Assembly: GCF_009695655.1 (NCBI RefSeq)
Contig: NZ_VUNM01000004.1
Span: 1-64,000 of the forward strand
Direction: 5' to 3'
From: Sharpea porci
Lineage (GTDB): Bacteria; Bacillota_I; Bacilli_A; Erysipelotrichales; Coprobacillaceae
DNA: 64,000 nt
Shown here: piece by piece, positions 34,066 to 55,556 of the stretch
How the letters are laid out: each line of letters opens with the position of its first letter
Position numbering within the stretch: the first letter of the stretch is position 1
Notes under the pieces: generated by a model
Databases searched by the model: none
Told to the model about the DNA's origin: nothing
What the model saw: only the letters and a program-made list of their open reading frames with translations
Made by a program: the position numbers and the translations under genes

Positions 34066-34139
34066 AGGGGCTTGGTTCAATGGTAGAGCATCGGTCTCCA
34101 AAACCGTTGATGCGGGTTCGATTCCTGCAGCCCCTGCCA
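34066..34139 (+). tRNA. tRNA-Trp (anticodon CCA)
   Basis: Plus-strand cloverleaf: acceptor AGGGGCT / AGCCCCT, D stem GTTC / GAGC, anticodon stem TCGGT / ACCGT with loop CTCCAAA, T stem GCGGG / CCTGC, discriminator G, encoded CCA. Confidence 0.95.
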
Positions 34140-37171: not shown

Positions 37172-39322
37172 TTATCTTGTTAAATCGACATAGAGATCAC
37201 GATACTGTCTTGCACTAGATTCCCAGCTTACATCCTTATCCATGTTACGCTGTACCATTTCATCCCAGCACCATCTATTTGTGAAATAAAGTGTCTTAGC
37301 TCTGTTAACAGCATCCAACAATAAGCCAGATTCATAACGATCAAATGTGAAGCCATTGCCCCAATTTGTATATTCATTGTATGGTTCAACAGTATCTTTT
37401 AAACCACCTGTTTCTCTGACAATAGGAATATCACCATAATGCATAGCGATTAACTGTGTGAGTCCACATGGTTCAAAGCGAGAAGGCACTAATAATGCAT
37501 CTGCGCCTGCATAGATATGATGTGCTCTTGTTTCATCATACATGATATTTGAACATACCTGTCCCTTATAAGCATTTTCATAATATCTGAAGCTATCTTC
37601 ATACTGCGCATCACCGGTTCCAAGAATGACAACCTGTGTGTTGCCATCAATAAGCTGAGGTAGGATTTCATTGACTAAGTCTAAGCCCTTCTGATTAGTA
37701 AGTCTAGAAACAAGACCAATCACAAACTTACCATCATCTACTTCCAAGCCTAATTCTTCCTGTAAAGCTTTCTTGTTTTTACGTTTTTCTGTTAAAACAT
37801 TACCTAAATCATAGTTATTCGCAAGTCTAGGATCAGTTGCAGGATTCCAGATATCATAGTCAATACCATTGACAATACCTCTTAACTTACCAGAATGATA
37901 TCTTAAGTGTGCATCAAGGTCTTCACCATATTCAGGTGTCTGAATTTCCCATGCATATGTACCAGATACTGTCGTAATCGCATCTGCATAAGTAAGACCA
38001 CCCTTAAGCATATTGGCATCCAACCATTTTACAGTCAATGCATCCTTATTGAAGACATAGTCAGGAAGACCAGTCCAGTATGAAATCATCCTCTTATCAT
38101 AAATACCCTGGAAACGTAAGTTATGAATAGTTAAAACTGTCTTAGCTCCACCAATAGGTGTATCTTTGAACATTGTATCAAGATATACAGGAACTAATGC
38201 AGCCTGCCAGTCATGGCAATGGATGACATCTGGTTCCCAATCCATATAATTCAATGCCGCCAAAGCAGCCTTTGAGAAATAACAGAACTTTGGAATATCA
38301 TCAATTAAGTTCGTATATGGATTACCATTTGTAAAGAATTCCTGGTTATCAATAAAATCATAAACAACCCCATCCCATACATATTCCATAATACCTACAT
38401 AGAATGAACGACCATCACTACATAAATTCATATCAAATGATCCACGATAGACCATCTTTTCCTGATATTTTTCAGGAATACAAGCATAACGAGGCAAGAT
38501 AACCTTAACATCACAATTCTGCTTAGCTAATTCCTTAGGCAATGCATACATAACATCCCCTAATCCACCAGTCTTCACAAATGGATAACATTCAGAACCA
38601 ATGAATGCCACACTTCTTCTTGGCTGTGGTAATTCTTTTACAGGTTCTTCTTTTTTCTCTTCAACAGGCTTAGCTTCTACCTTTGCTTCAGCTTTCTTTG
38701 CAGCTGGTTTAGCTTCCGCCTTAACATCAGCCTTCTTTTCAGCAGGCTTTGCTTCAGCCTTAGTTTCAACTTTCTTCGCAGCTGGCTTAGCTTCAGCCTT
38801 TGCTTCTACTTTCTTTTCAGCAGGTTTTGCTTCTACCTTAGTTTCAGCTTTCTTAGCTGCAGGTTTAGCTTCAGCCTTAGTTTCTACTTTCTTCGCAGCT
38901 GGCTTAGCTTCTACCTTAGTTTCAGATTTCTTTTCAGTAGGCTTTGCCTCTACCTTAGTTTCAGCTTTCTTAGCTGCAGGTTTAGCTTCTGCCTTAGCTT
39001 CAGCCTTCTTTTCAGCAGGCTTTGCTTCTACCTTAGTTTCAGCTTTCTTAGCTGCAGGTTTAGCTTCAGCCTTAGTTTCTACTTTCTTTTCAGCAGGTTT
39101 TGCTTCCACCTTAGTTTCAGCTTTCTTAGCTGCAGGTTTAGCTTCTACCTTAGTTTCTACTTTCTTCGCAGCTGGTTTAACCTCAGTCACAGGTTTTACT
39201 GCTTTTATATCTGTAGCTACTGGATCAGGACTTACAGCAGTAGCTTTTGTATTTCTTTTAACCGTTTTTACAGCCTTTTTTACTGTATGCGTTTTCTTTT
39301 TTCTCGTTGATTTTGCTGGCAT
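37172..39322 (-). CDS. glgA: Glycogen synthase with an N-terminal lysine-rich repeat extension
   Basis: A 716-residue protein. Residues ~236-716 are a full GT5 ADP-glucose glycogen synthase: VKTGGLGDVMYALPKEL (sugar-nucleotide loop), HCHDWQAALVP, LTIHNLRFQGIYD, GIVNGIDYDIWNP, and the catalytic SRFEPCGLTQLIAMHYGDIPIVRETGGLKDTV. Residues 1-47 are basic (MPAKSTRKKKTHTVKKAVKT...). Residues 48-216 are thirteen 13-residue repeats of the type AKPAAKKAETKVE, plus a partial copy. Normal GlgA is about 480 residues. The ATG at 39322 is preceded by GGAGGAG. No other glg genes are adjacent. The role of the extension is unknown. Confidence 0.93.
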   Translation of the reverse strand: MPAKSTRKKKTHTVKKAVKTVKRNTKATAVSPDPVATDIKAVKPVTEVKPAAKKVETKVEAKPAAKKAETKVEAKPAEKKVETKAEAKPAAKKAETKVEAKPAEKKAEAKAEAKPAAKKAETKVEAKPTEKKSETKVEAKPAAKKVETKAEAKPAAKKAETKVEAKPAEKKVEAKAEAKPAAKKVETKAEAKPAEKKADVKAEAKPAAKKAEAKVEAKPVEEKKEEPVKELPQPRRSVAFIGSECYPFVKTGGLGDVMYALPKELAKQNCDVKVILPRYACIPEKYQEKMVYRGSFDMNLCSDGRSFYVGIMEYVWDGVVYDFIDNQEFFTNGNPYTNLIDDIPKFCYFSKAALAALNYMDWEPDVIHCHDWQAALVPVYLDTMFKDTPIGGAKTVLTIHNLRFQGIYDKRMISYWTGLPDYVFNKDALTVKWLDANMLKGGLTYADAITTVSGTYAWEIQTPEYGEDLDAHLRYHSGKLRGIVNGIDYDIWNPATDPRLANNYDLGNVLTEKRKNKKALQEELGLEVDDGKFVIGLVSRLTNQKGLDLVNEILPQLIDGNTQVVILGTGDAQYEDSFRYYENAYKGQVCSNIMYDETRAHHIYAGADALLVPSRFEPCGLTQLIAMHYGDIPIVRETGGLKDTVEPYNEYTNWGNGFTFDRYESGLLLDAVNRAKTLYFTNRWCWDEMVQRNMDKDVSWESSARQYRDLYVDLTR
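38675..39181 (-). repeat. Thirteen tandem 39-bp coding repeats in glgA
   Basis: The DNA encodes 13 consecutive copies of a 13-residue Lys/Ala/Glu/Pro unit (consensus AKPAAKKAETKVE, alternating with AKPAEKKVETKAE). Copies differ mainly at silent and Ala/Val or Ala/Glu positions. The reverse strand is open over the whole region but is not a gene. Confidence 0.9.
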
Positions 39323-39667
39323 AATGTTCTCCTCCATTTAATCATTGAAGACATTATATCACATTCTTAGATTTGAAAAAATGCTCGATGAAATTCTCTT
39401 AAGAAAAATCAAAGCTCTTTCACAATTTGAAAACAAAAGTTGTGAAAATGACACTTAGATCTATTTCTAGATAATAGCGGTTAATCATTTGTCTAAGAAT
39501 TATAAATCATTAATCATGTAACACCATTACGTTAATCCTTTATGCTAATGAATTCTATTTATTCTTTTATCACAAAGCACAAATTTCTTGTTACTTTGTT
39601 TATCAAGATTATGCTGTATTTTCATCATACAAAAAAGAGCCACAGTACTCACCGTGACTCACCAATA
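39323..39667. other. glgA upstream region
   Basis: Contains an extended -10 for glgA on the minus strand (TGATATAAT, hexamer at 39353-39358), a perfect inverted repeat TTTCACAA (39418-39425) / TTGTGAAA (39440-39447), a lone TCTTAAGAAAA near 39397, and the terminator of the 3D-domain gene at 39631-39660. No gene seen. Confidence 0.55.
39631..39660 (-). terminator. Terminator of the 3D-domain gene
   Basis: Stem GAGTCAC / GTGGCTC (one G-U) with a 10-nt loop region, followed on the minus strand by TTTTTTG. Confidence 0.75.
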
Positions 39668-40372
39668 CTACCATGCAGTAGCTATATCTAATTGTGTTGG
39701 ATTACGTGCCGCAAAGGAACCTGTGTCCACAACAATACCCATACCTAATGATGTCGGTAAGATTGTGCCCTTTGGACGAATGGATAAGTTAGCTGCCACC
39801 ATGACATAGTCACCTAGCATCTTAACGCCATCTTCTCTTACCCAGTATCTCGCATTGTTGCCTCTTGCACGCATCGCATTCACAACATTACTCATATTCA
39901 TATTATAAAAAGACTCTTTACCACTTGGGCCATTGAAAACACCAGCGCTCTTAGAAAGTCTTCCACCACGACTAACATAGCGTGTTGGTTGAACCTGTGT
40001 CTTTGCAGCCGCTTCAGCTTTTGCTTTAGCTTCTGCCTCAGCCTTTGCCTTAGCTTCTGCTTCAGCCTTAGCTTTAGCCTCTGCTTCTGCTCTTGCTTTT
40101 TCTTCAGCTGCTTTTCTTGCGGCTTCTTCAGCTGCCTTCTGGGCATCAATTTCAGCCTGGATCTTAGCTGCTGTTTCTTTGACAACATTAGCTGTTTCTT
40201 CATGGGCTGCCTGTAAGCTTTGTTTAGTAGAAGCTGCCTGTGTAGCCACATTGATGGTAATCAGTTCTTGTTTTGTATCTTTTGTACTTTCAGCGTTAAC
40301 TTTTGATACCTGTACGCCAGAGATTAATGCAAAGCTTAATACTAACGCACTGAGTTTCTTTCAATTCATCAT
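39668..40372 (-). pseudogene. Secreted coiled-coil 3D-domain protein with a UGA stop in its signal peptide
   Basis: Reading from the ATG at 40372 (AGGT upstream) gives MMN, then TGA at 40361-40363, then KKLSALVLSFALISGVQVSKVNA, a textbook signal peptide, in frame with the rest. The mature part has an Ala/Lys/Glu coiled coil (residues ~75-125, AEAKAKAEAEAKAK repeats) and a C-terminal 3D-like domain (GTILPTSLGMGIVVDTGSFA...QLDIATAW), as in peptidoglycan-active YocH/RlpA-type proteins. One base change (CGA to TGA) would explain the stop. Otherwise intact over 235 codons, with a perfect promoter. Internal starts (GTG 40249) would lose the signal. Confidence 0.7.
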
Positions 40373-40402
40373 AAATTTACCTCGCTTTTTAAGTTCTCCT
40401 AT

Positions 40403-40431
40403 ACTATACAAAACTTAAGAATTTTTGTCAA
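40403..40431 (-). promoter_or_regulatory. Consensus promoter of the 3D-domain gene
   Basis: Minus-strand -35 TTGACA (40426-40431) and -10 TATAGT (40403-40408), 17-bp spacer. Confidence 0.8.
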
Positions 40432-40463
40432 ATATTTTATTGAATTTATCAATATTTTTTGAG

Positions 40464-40515
40464 TTTCTTAAGCATTTCTTAAGCAATTTCTTAAGAAATT
40501 AAGAATCTTAAGAAA
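40464..40515. promoter_or_regulatory. CTTAAG repeat array upstream of the 3D-gene promoter
   Basis: TTTCTTAAG occurs at 40464-40472, 40475-40483 and 40487-40495 (11- and 12-bp steps); the last is part of the 16-bp palindrome AATTTCTTAAGAAATT. CTTAAGAAA recurs inverted at 40507-40515, and CTTAAG again in the promoter spacer. The one-helical-turn spacing is typical of OmpR-family response regulator sites. Confidence 0.55.
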
Positions 40516-40518
40516 TAG

Positions 40519-41873: not shown

Positions 41874-43085
41874 TTATAAGAGCACTTCAAAAGTAATCAC
41901 GTTATCTTTCCAGCTCACACTGATCTTGCCCTTACATGCCGCAACAATAGATTCAGCCATCGACAAGCCAATACCATAACCGCCTTTACTAATTCGCGTA
42001 TGAGAACTATCGGCACGATAGAAGCGTTCAAAGAAACGAGAATAATCCACATTAGCACCATTACGATAATCATTTGAGACAGTTAAACGCACACGTCTAC
42101 CCTTGCTTAAAGTGATATACACTGTTCCCTTTTCATCACAATATTTAATAGCATTATCAACAAGAATATTGGCTAGTTCATGCAATCGTTTTTTATCTGC
42201 CTTGACAAAGACAAGATCTTCAATATCTGTTTTCAGTGTTAAATTCTCACCTGCTGCAACAGGCTGGAAATCCTTCGCGACACTCTTAAGTGTCTCTGAA
42301 TAATCAAACTGTTCGAGCACAATATCTTCACGTTCATCAAGACGGGCGATAGTCACCAATTCTGCAACCAGACCTGATAAGCGTTTGACTTGTTTCATTG
42401 TACTCTGAGTCCATTCATTCTTGCCATTCATCATTTCCATGACTTCTGTGTTCGCACTAATGACCGCTAAAGGGGTCTTTAGTTCATGGCCAGCATTGGT
42501 AATAAATTGTTTTTGTTGCTGCTGAGAGCGGATAATGGGCTTAATAGCCTTACCTGAAAGCAAGCATACCAAGGTAAAGAACCCCGCAAAAGAAAGAAAG
42601 CCGAGCCATAAGCTCATTGAAAACATTGAAGAAGCGAAAGAAGCTTGATTAGTGCCATCAATAAAGACAATCATCCTACTGCCATCCTTCTTCGTTACAA
42701 CCCTATAAAAATAGATGAGATCCGCATATTTTATTTTACCTCGATCATCATCCACCTTCTTTGTTAAAGCAATGGCATCTTCCTTTGTAATTGCCGCTAC
42801 TTTATCCATTGAAGCTTTCGCAAGCGAACCATCTTTATTGAAGACCATCGTAAAATAACGTGTTTCATAGGATGTTTCAGGTGTGAAATAGGCATTGTCT
42901 TCATCCTGTTCTTTAACTTTAGGTAAATAGCCATCATGTTCAACAATATAATCCAATGTTGTATAGATACGGTTATAGGCACGTTCATGAATGGCTGAAT
43001 TAATAATCCCAATGATAGTAACAAGCACCACCAGCAAGGCAATCGAAGCCGAGCCAATAAACTGCCACCTTAATCTTCTAATCAT
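41874..43085 (-). CDS. Sensor histidine kinase
   Basis: A 403-residue membrane kinase. Membrane helices near residues 12-32 and 158-178 flank an extracytoplasmic sensor domain of about 120 residues. The H-box is FITNAGHELKTPLAVI (phosphoacceptor His), followed by an N-box (NILVDNAIKY), a shortened F/G region and GYGIGLSMAESIV as G2-box. It ends at the ATPase domain. GGTGGTGGG precedes the ATG. It lies 11 nt after the cognate response regulator. Signal unknown; cell-envelope stress is plausible from neighbours. Confidence 0.9.
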   Translation of the reverse strand: MIRRLRWQFIGSASIALLVVLVTIIGIINSAIHERAYNRIYTTLDYIVEHDGYLPKVKEQDEDNAYFTPETSYETRYFTMVFNKDGSLAKASMDKVAAITKEDAIALTKKVDDDRGKIKYADLIYFYRVVTKKDGSRMIVFIDGTNQASFASSMFSMSLWLGFLSFAGFFTLVCLLSGKAIKPIIRSQQQQKQFITNAGHELKTPLAVISANTEVMEMMNGKNEWTQSTMKQVKRLSGLVAELVTIARLDEREDIVLEQFDYSETLKSVAKDFQPVAAGENLTLKTDIEDLVFVKADKKRLHELANILVDNAIKYCDEKGTVYITLSKGRRVRLTVSNDYRNGANVDYSRFFERFYRADSSHTRISKGGYGIGLSMAESIVAACKGKISVSWKDNVITFEVLL

Positions 43086-43096
43086 CTTCCCACCAC

Positions 43097-43765
43097 CTAT
43101 CTCTTAACTAAATGATATTGTGCACCTTCTTCACCTTCAATCATCACACTAGAGCCAATCGCATTGAGCTTACTATTCAAATAAGAGACATAGACATAGA
43201 CAAGATCAATCGATGCATCATCATCGTCTTTCCAGACATGATTGAATATCATATCTGTTGAAAGCATCTTGCCCTTATTCAACATAAAATACTCCATTAG
43301 CTTTGCTTCCTTCACGCCCAGTCTTACAGCATTCTCACACTTGATTTCTTGTTCATTAATATCCAAAGTCACATTACCTGCTTCAAGCACTTTAGGCGTA
43401 TATGTCTCCTGTCGTCTTGTCAGACTCTTTATTCGGGCAATCAGTTCACCAATCGCAAAAGGCTTGGTCAAATAGTCATCAGCACCAGCATCCAGCCCAT
43501 TAATACGATCTTCTACTTCAGCCTTGGCCGTAAGGAAAATCACCGGTGTGCGATCTCCTGCTTCACGTATCTTGCTTAAAGCTTCCATTCCATTCATCAC
43601 TGGCATCATGATATCAAGCACCATGCAATCATAGGCATACTTTGAGGCAAACTTCACAGCCTCAGCCCCATTTTCTACCGCATCAACATCATAGCCCGTA
43701 TGGGTTAAAACAGCGACCAAAGCCCTTTTTAAATCATGTTCATCTTCAGCTAACAATATCTTCAT
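43097..43765 (-). CDS. OmpR/PhoB-family response regulator
   Basis: A 222-residue regulator. The receiver domain (1-~118) has the acidic pair LLAEDE, the phosphoacceptor in MVLDIMMPVMNG and the KPF lysine motif (YLTKPFAIGEL). The C-terminal winged helix (~128-222) follows with DINEQEIKC...LGVKEAKLMEYFMLNKGKMLS. The ATG at 43765 is 9 nt from AGGAG, which lies in the end of the alarmone synthetase gene; an upstream TTG is too close. Partner of the downstream sensor kinase. The CTTAAG array near 40.48 kb is a candidate binding site. Confidence 0.9.
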   Translation of the reverse strand: MKILLAEDEHDLKRALVAVLTHTGYDVDAVENGAEAVKFASKYAYDCMVLDIMMPVMNGMEALSKIREAGDRTPVIFLTAKAEVEDRINGLDAGADDYLTKPFAIGELIARIKSLTRRQETYTPKVLEAGNVTLDINEQEIKCENAVRLGVKEAKLMEYFMLNKGKMLSTDMIFNHVWKDDDDASIDLVYVYVSYLNSKLNAIGSSVMIEGEEGAQYHLVKR

Positions 43766-43770
43766 ATCAC

Positions 43771-44379
43771 TCAACTCCTATTAATAAGATCCCTGATTGT
43801 CTGCATGGAAAGATCACAGCTTGCTAATTCATCCGCCACTCTTTTTAATTCCGAAGAAATCAGTTCACGATTCTTAATATCTTTTTTATAGCTCATTTGA
43901 TGTTCCAAGGCTGCCCAGGAATCCATCGCAATTGTTCTGATCTGTATTTCGACATAGAATGATCCTGGCTGATGTCCAAGAATATCTTTTTGTGGGCTTG
44001 TGACTTGAATAATCATGTGGTAGGAACGATAACCATTCTCTTTAGCGTGCGAGATATAGTCCTTCTCTTCAACAACATGCACAAATTCTAAATCTTTAAT
44101 CAAACGCACAACTTCAAAGACATCATCCACAAATGTCGTGACAATACGTAAGCCAATCGCATCCTTTAATGTCACTAGGGCATTATATGTTGTTGGTTCA
44201 AGCTTTTTTCTTTGTAGTTTTTCCAACATTGAATCTTCACTCTTAATACGATAATTTAAATGTTCATAGAGTGGTTCACCATATTCCTTTTGATAATATG
44301 CATTAAAACTTTCTATTTTCTCTACAATCCTGCCCATTACATCTTTAAGAGCAGGTAAGTATTCACCATATATAGACAT
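43771..44379 (-). CDS. Small alarmone synthetase (RelA/SpoT synthetase domain only)
   Basis: A 202-residue (p)ppGpp synthetase of the RelQ/RelP type, without hydrolase or TGS domains. Diagnostic blocks are VTLKDAIGLRIVTTFVDDV, HAKENGYRSYHMIIQ, and FYVEIQIRTIAMDSWAALEHQMSYK, containing the synthetase aspartate, the Gly-Tyr-Arg-Ser loop and the catalytic Glu. It makes (p)ppGpp from GTP/GDP and ATP. The ATG at 44379 has GAGGTG 6 nt upstream; the TTG at 44388 overlaps that site. It is the first gene of an operon with a two-component system, an uncommon arrangement. Confidence 0.9.
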   Translation of the reverse strand: MSIYGEYLPALKDVMGRIVEKIESFNAYYQKEYGEPLYEHLNYRIKSEDSMLEKLQRKKLEPTTYNALVTLKDAIGLRIVTTFVDDVFEVVRLIKDLEFVHVVEEKDYISHAKENGYRSYHMIIQVTSPQKDILGHQPGSFYVEIQIRTIAMDSWAALEHQMSYKKDIKNRELISSELKRVADELASCDLSMQTIRDLINRS

Positions 44380-54377: not shown

Positions 54378-55556
54378 TTAATGATGGAATAAACGTAGAT
54401 GTGTGAAGGCAAGAACCATATGATATTTATTAGCTACTTCAATTACATGATCATCACGTACTGAACCGCCTGCTTCACCAACATAGACAACACCAGAACG
54501 ATGGGCTCTTTCAATATTATCCCCAAATGGGAAGAAAGCATCTGAACCTAAAACAACATTCTTATTTGTCTTAAGCCATTCTTTCTGAGCCTGTCTTGTA
54601 AAGACTTCTGGACGGACTTTGAATGTTTCCTGCCAGTTATCATCACCATTGACATCTTCCCAGTCTTCAGAAAGATAGACATCAATCGCATTATCACGTT
54701 CAGCACGTTTTAAAGTATCAACGAATTGAAGATTTAATACTTGTGGTGACTGTCTTAAATACCATTTATCAGCTTTATCACCAGCTAAACGTGTACAATG
54801 AATACGACTCTGCTGACCAGCACCAATACCAATTGCCTGTCCATCTTTGACATAACATACAGAGTTAGACTGTGTATATTTTAAAGTGATCATTGAGATA
54901 ATAAGATCTCTTATCGCAAAGTCAGGTAAGTCTTTATTTTCAGAAACAATATCAGTGAATAAATCCGGTGTAATTTCAATATTATTTCTACCTTGTTCAA
55001 AAGTTACACCAAAAACCTGTTTTCTCTCTATTTCATTTGGTACATAGTTAGGATCAATCTGAATAACACAATAGTTACCACGTTTCTTTGTCTTTAAGAT
55101 TTCTAATGCTTCATCAGTATATCCAGGAGCAATAATACCATCGCTGACTTCTCTCTTAATCAGCTTGGCAGTTACAGCATCACAGACATCACTTAATGCA
55201 CAGAAATCACCATAACTGCTCATACGGTCACTACCCCTAGCTTTGATATAAGCATTTGCGACTGGTGTAAGTTCTTCATTAGATTCTTTTACGAAATACA
55301 TTTGTCTTTCAACTTCACTTAATGGTGTACCCACTGCTACCCCTGCAGGAGATACATGCTTAAAGCTTGCCGCACAGACTTCGCCTGTTGCCTTCTTGAC
55401 TTCTTTGACTAGCTGCCAGCTATTAAGAGCATCAAGTAAGTTGATGTAACCTGGCTTACCATTCAACACTGTAAAAGGAAGATCCCCATCTTCCATGAAA
55501 ACGCGTGCTGGCTTTTGATTAGGATTACAGCCATACTTCAATTCAAGTTCCTTCAT
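54378..55556 (-). CDS. purH: AICAR transformylase without the IMP cyclohydrolase domain
   Basis: A 392-residue enzyme converting AICAR and 10-formyl-THF to FAICAR, the ninth step of purine synthesis. It matches the C-terminal (transformylase) half of PurH: ELKYGCNPNQKPARVF at the start, AASFKHVSPAGVAVG with the catalytic Lys-His, KYTQSNSVCYVKDGQAIGIGAGQQSR, and the end SDAFFPFGDNIERAHRSGV...HMVLAFTHLRLFHH. The IMP cyclohydrolase domain is absent; this stand-alone form is known in some Firmicutes. Strong AGGAGG upstream. A ZTP riboswitch with terminator in the leader controls it. Confidence 0.9.
   Translation of the reverse strand: MKELELKYGCNPNQKPARVFMEDGDLPFTVLNGKPGYINLLDALNSWQLVKEVKKATGEVCAASFKHVSPAGVAVGTPLSEVERQMYFVKESNEELTPVANAYIKARGSDRMSSYGDFCALSDVCDAVTAKLIKREVSDGIIAPGYTDEALEILKTKKRGNYCVIQIDPNYVPNEIERKQVFGVTFEQGRNNIEITPDLFTDIVSENKDLPDFAIRDLIISMITLKYTQSNSVCYVKDGQAIGIGAGQQSRIHCTRLAGDKADKWYLRQSPQVLNLQFVDTLKRAERDNAIDVYLSEDWEDVNGDDNWQETFKVRPEVFTRQAQKEWLKTNKNVVLGSDAFFPFGDNIERAHRSGVVYVGEAGGSVRDDHVIEVANKYHMVLAFTHLRLFHH

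Follow-up and report, generated by a model that had tools for sequence, protein, structure and literature searches.

A conserved in-frame UGA at codon 4 of a probable secreted YuiC-like enzyme gene of Sharpea porci, likely to be read through occasionally

The question raised by this locus is whether a gene whose reading frame meets a stop at its fourth codon can still be a living gene and, if so, how its protein is made. The gene lies in Sharpea porci, on the minus strand of a 64,000-nucleotide stretch (the window; contig NZ_VUNM01000004.1, positions 1 to 64,000), where it runs from 40372 down to 39668 and reads ATG ATG AAT TGA, followed by 230 sense codons to a TAG. An earlier reading of the DNA made without comparison to other genomes (the sequence-only reading) had reported an early in-frame UGA in an otherwise intact gene, and this was borne out, with its coordinates exact. 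To judge from the sequence evidence assembled here, this is likely to be a living gene with a conserved start-proximal UGA, which is occasionally read through by the tryptophan tRNA, tRNA-Trp(CCA), to yield a secreted enzyme. The parts of the gene are these.

40403 to 40431, minus strand: promoter TTGACA-17-TATAGT, 11 of 12 positions, both hexamers unchanged in the sister species.
40379 to 40383, minus strand: Shine-Dalgarno sequence GAGGT, with a 6-nt spacer to the first ATG, the same in the sister species.
39668 to 40372, minus strand: whole reading frame, MMN(UGA)KKLSALVLSF..., 234 codons plus TAG, with dN/dS (the ratio of non-synonymous to synonymous divergence) of 0.08 against the sister species.
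40367 to 40372, minus strand: two ATG start codons in tandem (40370-40372 and 40367-40369), the same in the sister species.
40364 to 40366, minus strand: AAT, codon 3.
40361 to 40363, minus strand: in-frame UGA, codon 4, next base A, from the sequence and the sister alignment.
40292 to 40360, minus strand: signal peptide KKLSALVLSFALISGVQVSKVNA, encoded wholly 3' of the UGA, with four synonymous and two non-synonymous codon differences from the sister species over 23 codons; its predicted cleavage site follows the (-3,-1) rule.
40247 to 40249, minus strand: GTG, codon 42, at which an ORF finder starts a 193-amino-acid (aa) open reading frame (ORF); the sister species has GTT, so that the start is not conserved.
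40001 to 40249, minus strand: Ala/Lys/Glu-rich stretch, codons 42-124, predicted to be a single long helix by a model with a mean predicted local distance difference test score (pLDDT) of only 64.
39671 to 39952, minus strand: C-terminal Sps/YuiC-like (MltA-like barrel) domain, codons 141-234, matched to YuiC by profile (E 0.002-0.004) and by structure (Z 5.4-5.7 over 66-67 residues).
39668 to 39670, minus strand: TAG stop.

The gene was compared between two genomes of the genus, one per species, namely that of S. porci and that of a sister species (G001). The sister species carries the same ATGATGAATTGAAAGAAA, with one TGA at the identical place, and the two proteins are 90% identical. The first six codons agree at 18 of 18 nucleotides and the leader at 27 of 30 positions from -30 to 0 and 29 of 30 from -60 to -30; in the remainder of the gene about one column differs in every five to nine, gaps included. 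A codon alignment (227 codons) gave a synonymous divergence (dS) of 0.591, a non-synonymous divergence (dN) of 0.047, and a dN/dS of 0.080, made up of 0.22 for the 28 codons after the TGA, where changes are few, 0.083 for the helix part, and 0.048 for the domain. Because this value falls within the range of ten neighbouring genes (dN/dS 0.044-0.106 at dS 0.22-1.43), the protein downstream of the UGA, signal peptide included, is under normal purifying selection; such a ratio would not be seen had the gene fallen silent before the two species diverged. Since two species at dS 0.59 have in common both the TGA and the first 18 nucleotides, the sharing of this stop is judged to exceed chance. Two features expected of a read-through gene were found here: a stop conserved within the genus (2 of 2 genomes) and constraint on the same frame downstream. 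The sequence-only reading had guessed at CGA as the ancestral codon; TGG (Trp) has at least an equal claim, and the analysis found no copy of the gene with a sense codon in that place, which would decide the matter.

As only two genomes can be compared, the pattern might have arisen from two unrelated recent stops, or from a single old stop, the gene now decaying slowly; paralogues with the same domain in the same genome (C51 and C10) could take over its role. We regard this as improbable, given that dN/dS lies inside the range of the neighbouring genes and that the promoter and Shine-Dalgarno sequence are conserved too.

Translation could also begin after the UGA, through re-initiation or an unusual start, so that the signal peptide would be absent or shortened. 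The 193-aa ORF in the window is of this kind. Its GTG at codon 42, the only ATG, GTG or TTG of the S. porci gene after the UGA and before codon 158, corresponds to GTT in the sister species. The sister gene in turn has one such codon in that interval, a GTG at codon 22, where S. porci has GTA. In that interval the two species thus have no ATG, GTG or TTG in common, and the first shared one, at codon 158, is inside the domain. Because the candidate starts are not common to both species, the 193-aa ORF is unlikely to be a real product. When rare starts (ATT, ATC, ATA, and CTG) were considered over the first 60 codons, shared ones were present at codons 17 (ATC), 38 (ATT), and 40 (ATC/ATT), any of which would drop all or most of a signal peptide that has been conserved mostly through synonymous change. 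The mismatched GTG codons likewise disfavour the re-initiation without a signal that had been listed among the original options, and a start after the UGA is about as doubtful as the decay just considered.

A decidedly poorer candidate is frameshift decoding, in which initiation at a TTG overlapping the stop (TTGA) would be followed by a +1 slip on AAA-G to produce MKKLSALVLSF. Such a product would be a textbook signal peptide, two relatives begin with MKN and MKK, the two species have the same TTG-AAA-G, and AAG would allow tRNA-Lys to re-pair, but the TTG lies 15 nt from the Shine-Dalgarno sequence with two better-placed ATGs ahead of it. It also weighs against this scheme that AAA-G is not known to act as a +1 site. 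A frameshift model of the RF2 type was rejected separately, as the RF2 gene, prfB, is one open frame in both species, without the usual autoregulatory frameshift or internal stop (L087, L088).

Recent inactivation of the gene, or a sequencing error, has less to recommend it still, and we give it very little credence. Genes commonly die through a single-base change to TGA, and most orthologous in-frame stops are short-lived, according to the text of PMC7918605. Against this, a second species, represented by an independent genome, has the same TGA with differences soon after it on the 3' side, and dN/dS is 0.08 over 227 codons. Both the fresh nonsense mutation and the sequencing error suggested from the sequence are rejected on these grounds, the shared TGA and the purifying selection downstream. 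With mutation and error rejected and re-initiation disfavoured, read-through is left as the option, and to that extent the suggestion of regulated read-through stands, its regulation being something that we only infer. The related idea of a phase or dosage switch is plausible as to dosage and unsupported as to phase, the TGA being present in both genomes with no repeat or slippery run nearby.

Weakest of all, and close to negligible, is decoding as selenocysteine or by a general UGA=Trp code: UGA is the selenocysteine codon and its reassignment to tryptophan is known in bacteria, but SelB and tRNA-Sec each scored above cut-off in 0 of 2 genomes, RF2 did so in 2 of 2, no UCA anticodon was present among the 66 tRNA matches of the genome, all of them read by ARAGORN (one only being a tRNA-Trp, with anticodon CCA), UGA ends 39 of 262 sampled ORFs, and no exchange of TGG and TGA was seen in about 47,800 aligned codons. 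The ORFs counted were those of at least 150 aa in a 340-kb sample of the genome, and in the window the figure was 2 of 41; the statement that UGA is a normal stop elsewhere is therefore true, with the addition that it is a minority stop. In the aligned sample of the two species, 0 of 269 Trp codons were exchanged for TGA in either direction, while TGG paired with TGG in 264 of 269 cases from S. porci to the sister species and in 266 of 269 in reverse. Three TGAs aligned to other sense codons, ahead of a gene start, on an alignment edge, or within a small ORF, and by their positions these look like artefacts. With no UCA tRNA, RF2 present, and no Trp codon of the 269 become UGA, the genetic code of the lineage is, on this evidence, standard. 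UGA is not freely used for tryptophan, and its persistence at codon 4 is therefore the more notable.

Occasional read-through, the explanation that we prefer, would work as follows. Ribosomes would load at GAGGT and initiate on either of the two AUGs, and most would end at codon 4 after Met-Met-Asn, while a minority would insert tryptophan at the UGA by means of the near-cognate tRNA-Trp(CCA) and continue to the Sps/YuiC-like protein. Both the UGA-A context and a broken 27-43 pair in the tRNA-Trp would raise the frequency of this event. In the text of the reports concerned, the UGA-A context is especially prone to misreading by tRNA-Trp in Escherichia coli (PMC5289835), the reporter gene catA86-TGA is read at 6% in Bacillus subtilis with wild-type prfB (PMC7918605), and UGA read-through in E. 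coli increases under stress and nutrient depletion (PMC11126739). A low, condition-dependent output would suit a wall enzyme that is potentially self-damaging, and a translational dosage valve of this kind would open once RF2 ran short relative to Trp-tRNA. It is possible, though we put this forward only tentatively, that the UGA is a maintained translational valve, in which competition between RF2 and the short-stem tRNA-Trp, a tRNA poised to read UGA in most of this order, sets the dose of a muralytic enzyme, the dose rising, for example, in starvation, with neither an RNA structure nor a dedicated factor. The tRNA is encoded in the same window.

34066 to 34139, plus strand: the sole tRNA-Trp (CCA) found in the genome, with U.U at 27-43, a 4-bp anticodon stem, and G at both positions 9 and 24.

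With positions numbered by hand, this tRNA has UCGGU at 27-31 and ACCGU at 39-43, which leaves U.U at 27-43 and an anticodon stem of four pairs. It and the tRNA of the sister species have the features described as 'Blastocrithidia-like', that is, an unpaired 27-43, a 7-nt loop, no A9C, and no G24A. A suppressor tRNA of the Hirsh type was rejected, positions 24 and 9 both being G. A search across the order (60 genomes and 57 matches, from which 50 sequences, L105-L154, were taken and 49 parsed) found 27-43 to be unpaired in 42 of the 49 parsed tRNA-Trp(CCA), those of S. porci and the sister species included, and paired in seven, with G-U counted as a pair. The broken types found in the order were U.U, C.U, A.C, and U.C, and some of these tRNAs (such as those of G017 and G040) also have A at position 24. 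The main text of PMC13092985 gives tRNAs with an unpaired 27-43 as 8.9% of bacterial tRNA-Trp(CCA) genes, and reports that one of them, overexpressed in E. coli, increased UGA read-through about 2.5-fold; that main text, its supplements left aside, makes no mention of Coprobacill-, Catenibacterium, or Erysipelotrich-. The order-wide short stem may plausibly aid read-through, but it is not what gave the codon-4 UGA gene its stop.

Several observations weigh against read-through as we have described it. The short anticodon stem is found order-wide, and so leaves unexplained why one gene has the UGA. According to the main text of PMC13092985, C27A by itself had earlier failed to produce read-through in vitro. 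The U.U mismatch may also have a milder effect than that change. Three stretches around the UGA fold no better than shuffled sequences (z -1.26, -0.87, and -1.29), giving no sign of a recoding RNA structure. With 0 of 269 Trp codons changed to UGA, the codon is clearly costly in this lineage. The gene has its stop in two species only, more distant homologues in the family (G017, G009) having an ordinary start and no in-frame stop, and the TGA could be tolerated rather than selected, since the paralogues C51 and C10 exist.

The product is probably a secreted YuiC/MltA-like muralytic enzyme, resembling the peptidoglycan lytic transglycosylases. In a Foldseek search with the model (mean pLDDT 64), ranks 1-4 were all YuiC (E 0.009-0.017), and the best structural match to YuiC had a Z of 5.7 and a root-mean-square deviation of 3.3 over 67 aligned residues, with LtgG and MltA next at a Z of about 3. 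The text of PMC4499186 names as YuiC residues the catalytic D162, the sugar-binding (-2 site) D151, and D129. D216 (39725-39727) corresponds to D151 by the profile alignment and D229 (39686-39688) to D162 by the end of the structural range, both being invariant in 10 aligned proteins, and N195 (39788-39790) stands at the place of D129, so that two of the three aspartates are kept. There was no match to the curated Pfam 3D model (PF06725), for which Asn195 may be the reason, and the SpsC equivalog NF058633 scored 20.3 bits, below its cut-off of 280. The 3D domain originally proposed holds up as a C-terminal 3D-like Sps/YuiC domain with two of three aspartates, and fails as a match to the Pfam family. 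Three paralogues (L007, L008, and L009) have immunoglobulin-like (Ig-like) repeats ahead of the same Sps-like domain and no in-frame stop.

Similar genes were sought in frames of all kinds across a sample of about 159 kb of the genome aligned with the sister sample, in which 1218 TGAs were conserved in frame with themselves, in any frame. Nineteen sites were looked at, 12 with an upstream ATG, GTG or TTG and a Shine-Dalgarno sequence and seven others, all with low dN/dS on the 3' side, and no other such gene was found among them; the rest ran antisense to another ORF, were overlapped by one, or lay before an ordinary gene start. One candidate (C12 -81514), with an ATG, a TGA, and no later start, was rejected as antisense to a small ORF. 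Within this sample, as distinct from the whole genome, the codon-4 UGA gene is the only such gene among the sites with the signature of an upstream start and a Shine-Dalgarno sequence. As a separate observation on the two species, the stretch 54378-55556 of the window and another at about 65,900-75,700 of G000:C34 are in places about 97-99% identical to the sister species, with adjoining genes at dS 0.6-1.4, and these near-identical stretches look like recent exchange.

The gene is flanked by two further features.

40412 to 40516, strand unassigned: TCTTAAGAAAT-type repeats, some ahead of the promoter and some within it, a candidate operator.
39637 to 39660, minus strand: intrinsic-terminator-like hairpin 3' of the gene, 10 pairs with a TTTTTT tail.

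Promoter-like matches in the region were in no excess (4, as against 6.6 in shuffles), TTGACA-17-TATAGT scoring best among them. The repeats are spaced at 12 and 17 nt, with one related copy between -35 and -10, and they are perhaps an operator for the response regulator at 43097-43774, the kinase of which is at 41874-43085. Elsewhere in the neighbourhood, the glycogen synthase GlgA (37172-39337) has an N-terminal extension that exceeds 200 residues and is built from K/P/A/E repeat units (KPAAKKAETKVEA-like).

According to the text of PMC7918605, cases of conserved functional stop read-through in the chromosomal genes of bacteria are believed to be short-lived for the most part, and a codon-4 UGA common to two diverged species, in a gene under ordinary purifying selection, offers a clean test case. 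The natural role of the missing top pair of the anticodon stem outside recoded genomes is, according to the main text of PMC13092985, still to be assessed. There is also a practical consequence, in that an automatic annotation pipeline would label the gene a pseudogene or place its start past the signal peptide. Searches of open-licence papers listed no earlier report of this case.

Each of the known systems to which the locus can be compared shares some of its features. The leaky UGAs of E. coli and B. subtilis have the same UGA-A, the same near-cognate tRNA-Trp(CCA), and a standard code with RF2, but are mostly mutants or reporters, whereas here a conserved gene carries the UGA as one of its own codons and 27-43 is unpaired in the tRNA-Trp. 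As in the cases described in the text of Belinky et al. 2021 (PMC7918605), the stop is orthologous, downstream dN/dS is below 1, and a lower output is proposed. Those stops are mostly short-lived and near the level of polymorphism, with 71% of pairs free of mismatches across the 30 bases that surround the stop, whereas this one persists at dS 0.59, at codon 4, and ahead of a signal peptide. The 4-bp-stem tRNA-Trp(CCA) of the main text of PMC13092985 likewise have an unpaired 27-43, a 7-nt loop, and neither A9C nor G24A, and the tRNAs of S. porci and its sister species differ in that the mismatch is U.U. In YuiC and the stationary phase survival (Sps) proteins (MltA-like) the protein has relatives that are also secreted, with the barrel domain, the catalytic Asp, and the -2 site Asp all kept, but it differs in having Asn as the first of the three aspartates, a long Ala/Lys/Glu helix ahead of the domain, and no match to Pfam 3D. 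The autoregulation of RF2 (prfB) is similar in that an early UGA controls synthesis through competition with RF2, but in the present case the gene is a different one and there is no frameshift into an open frame.
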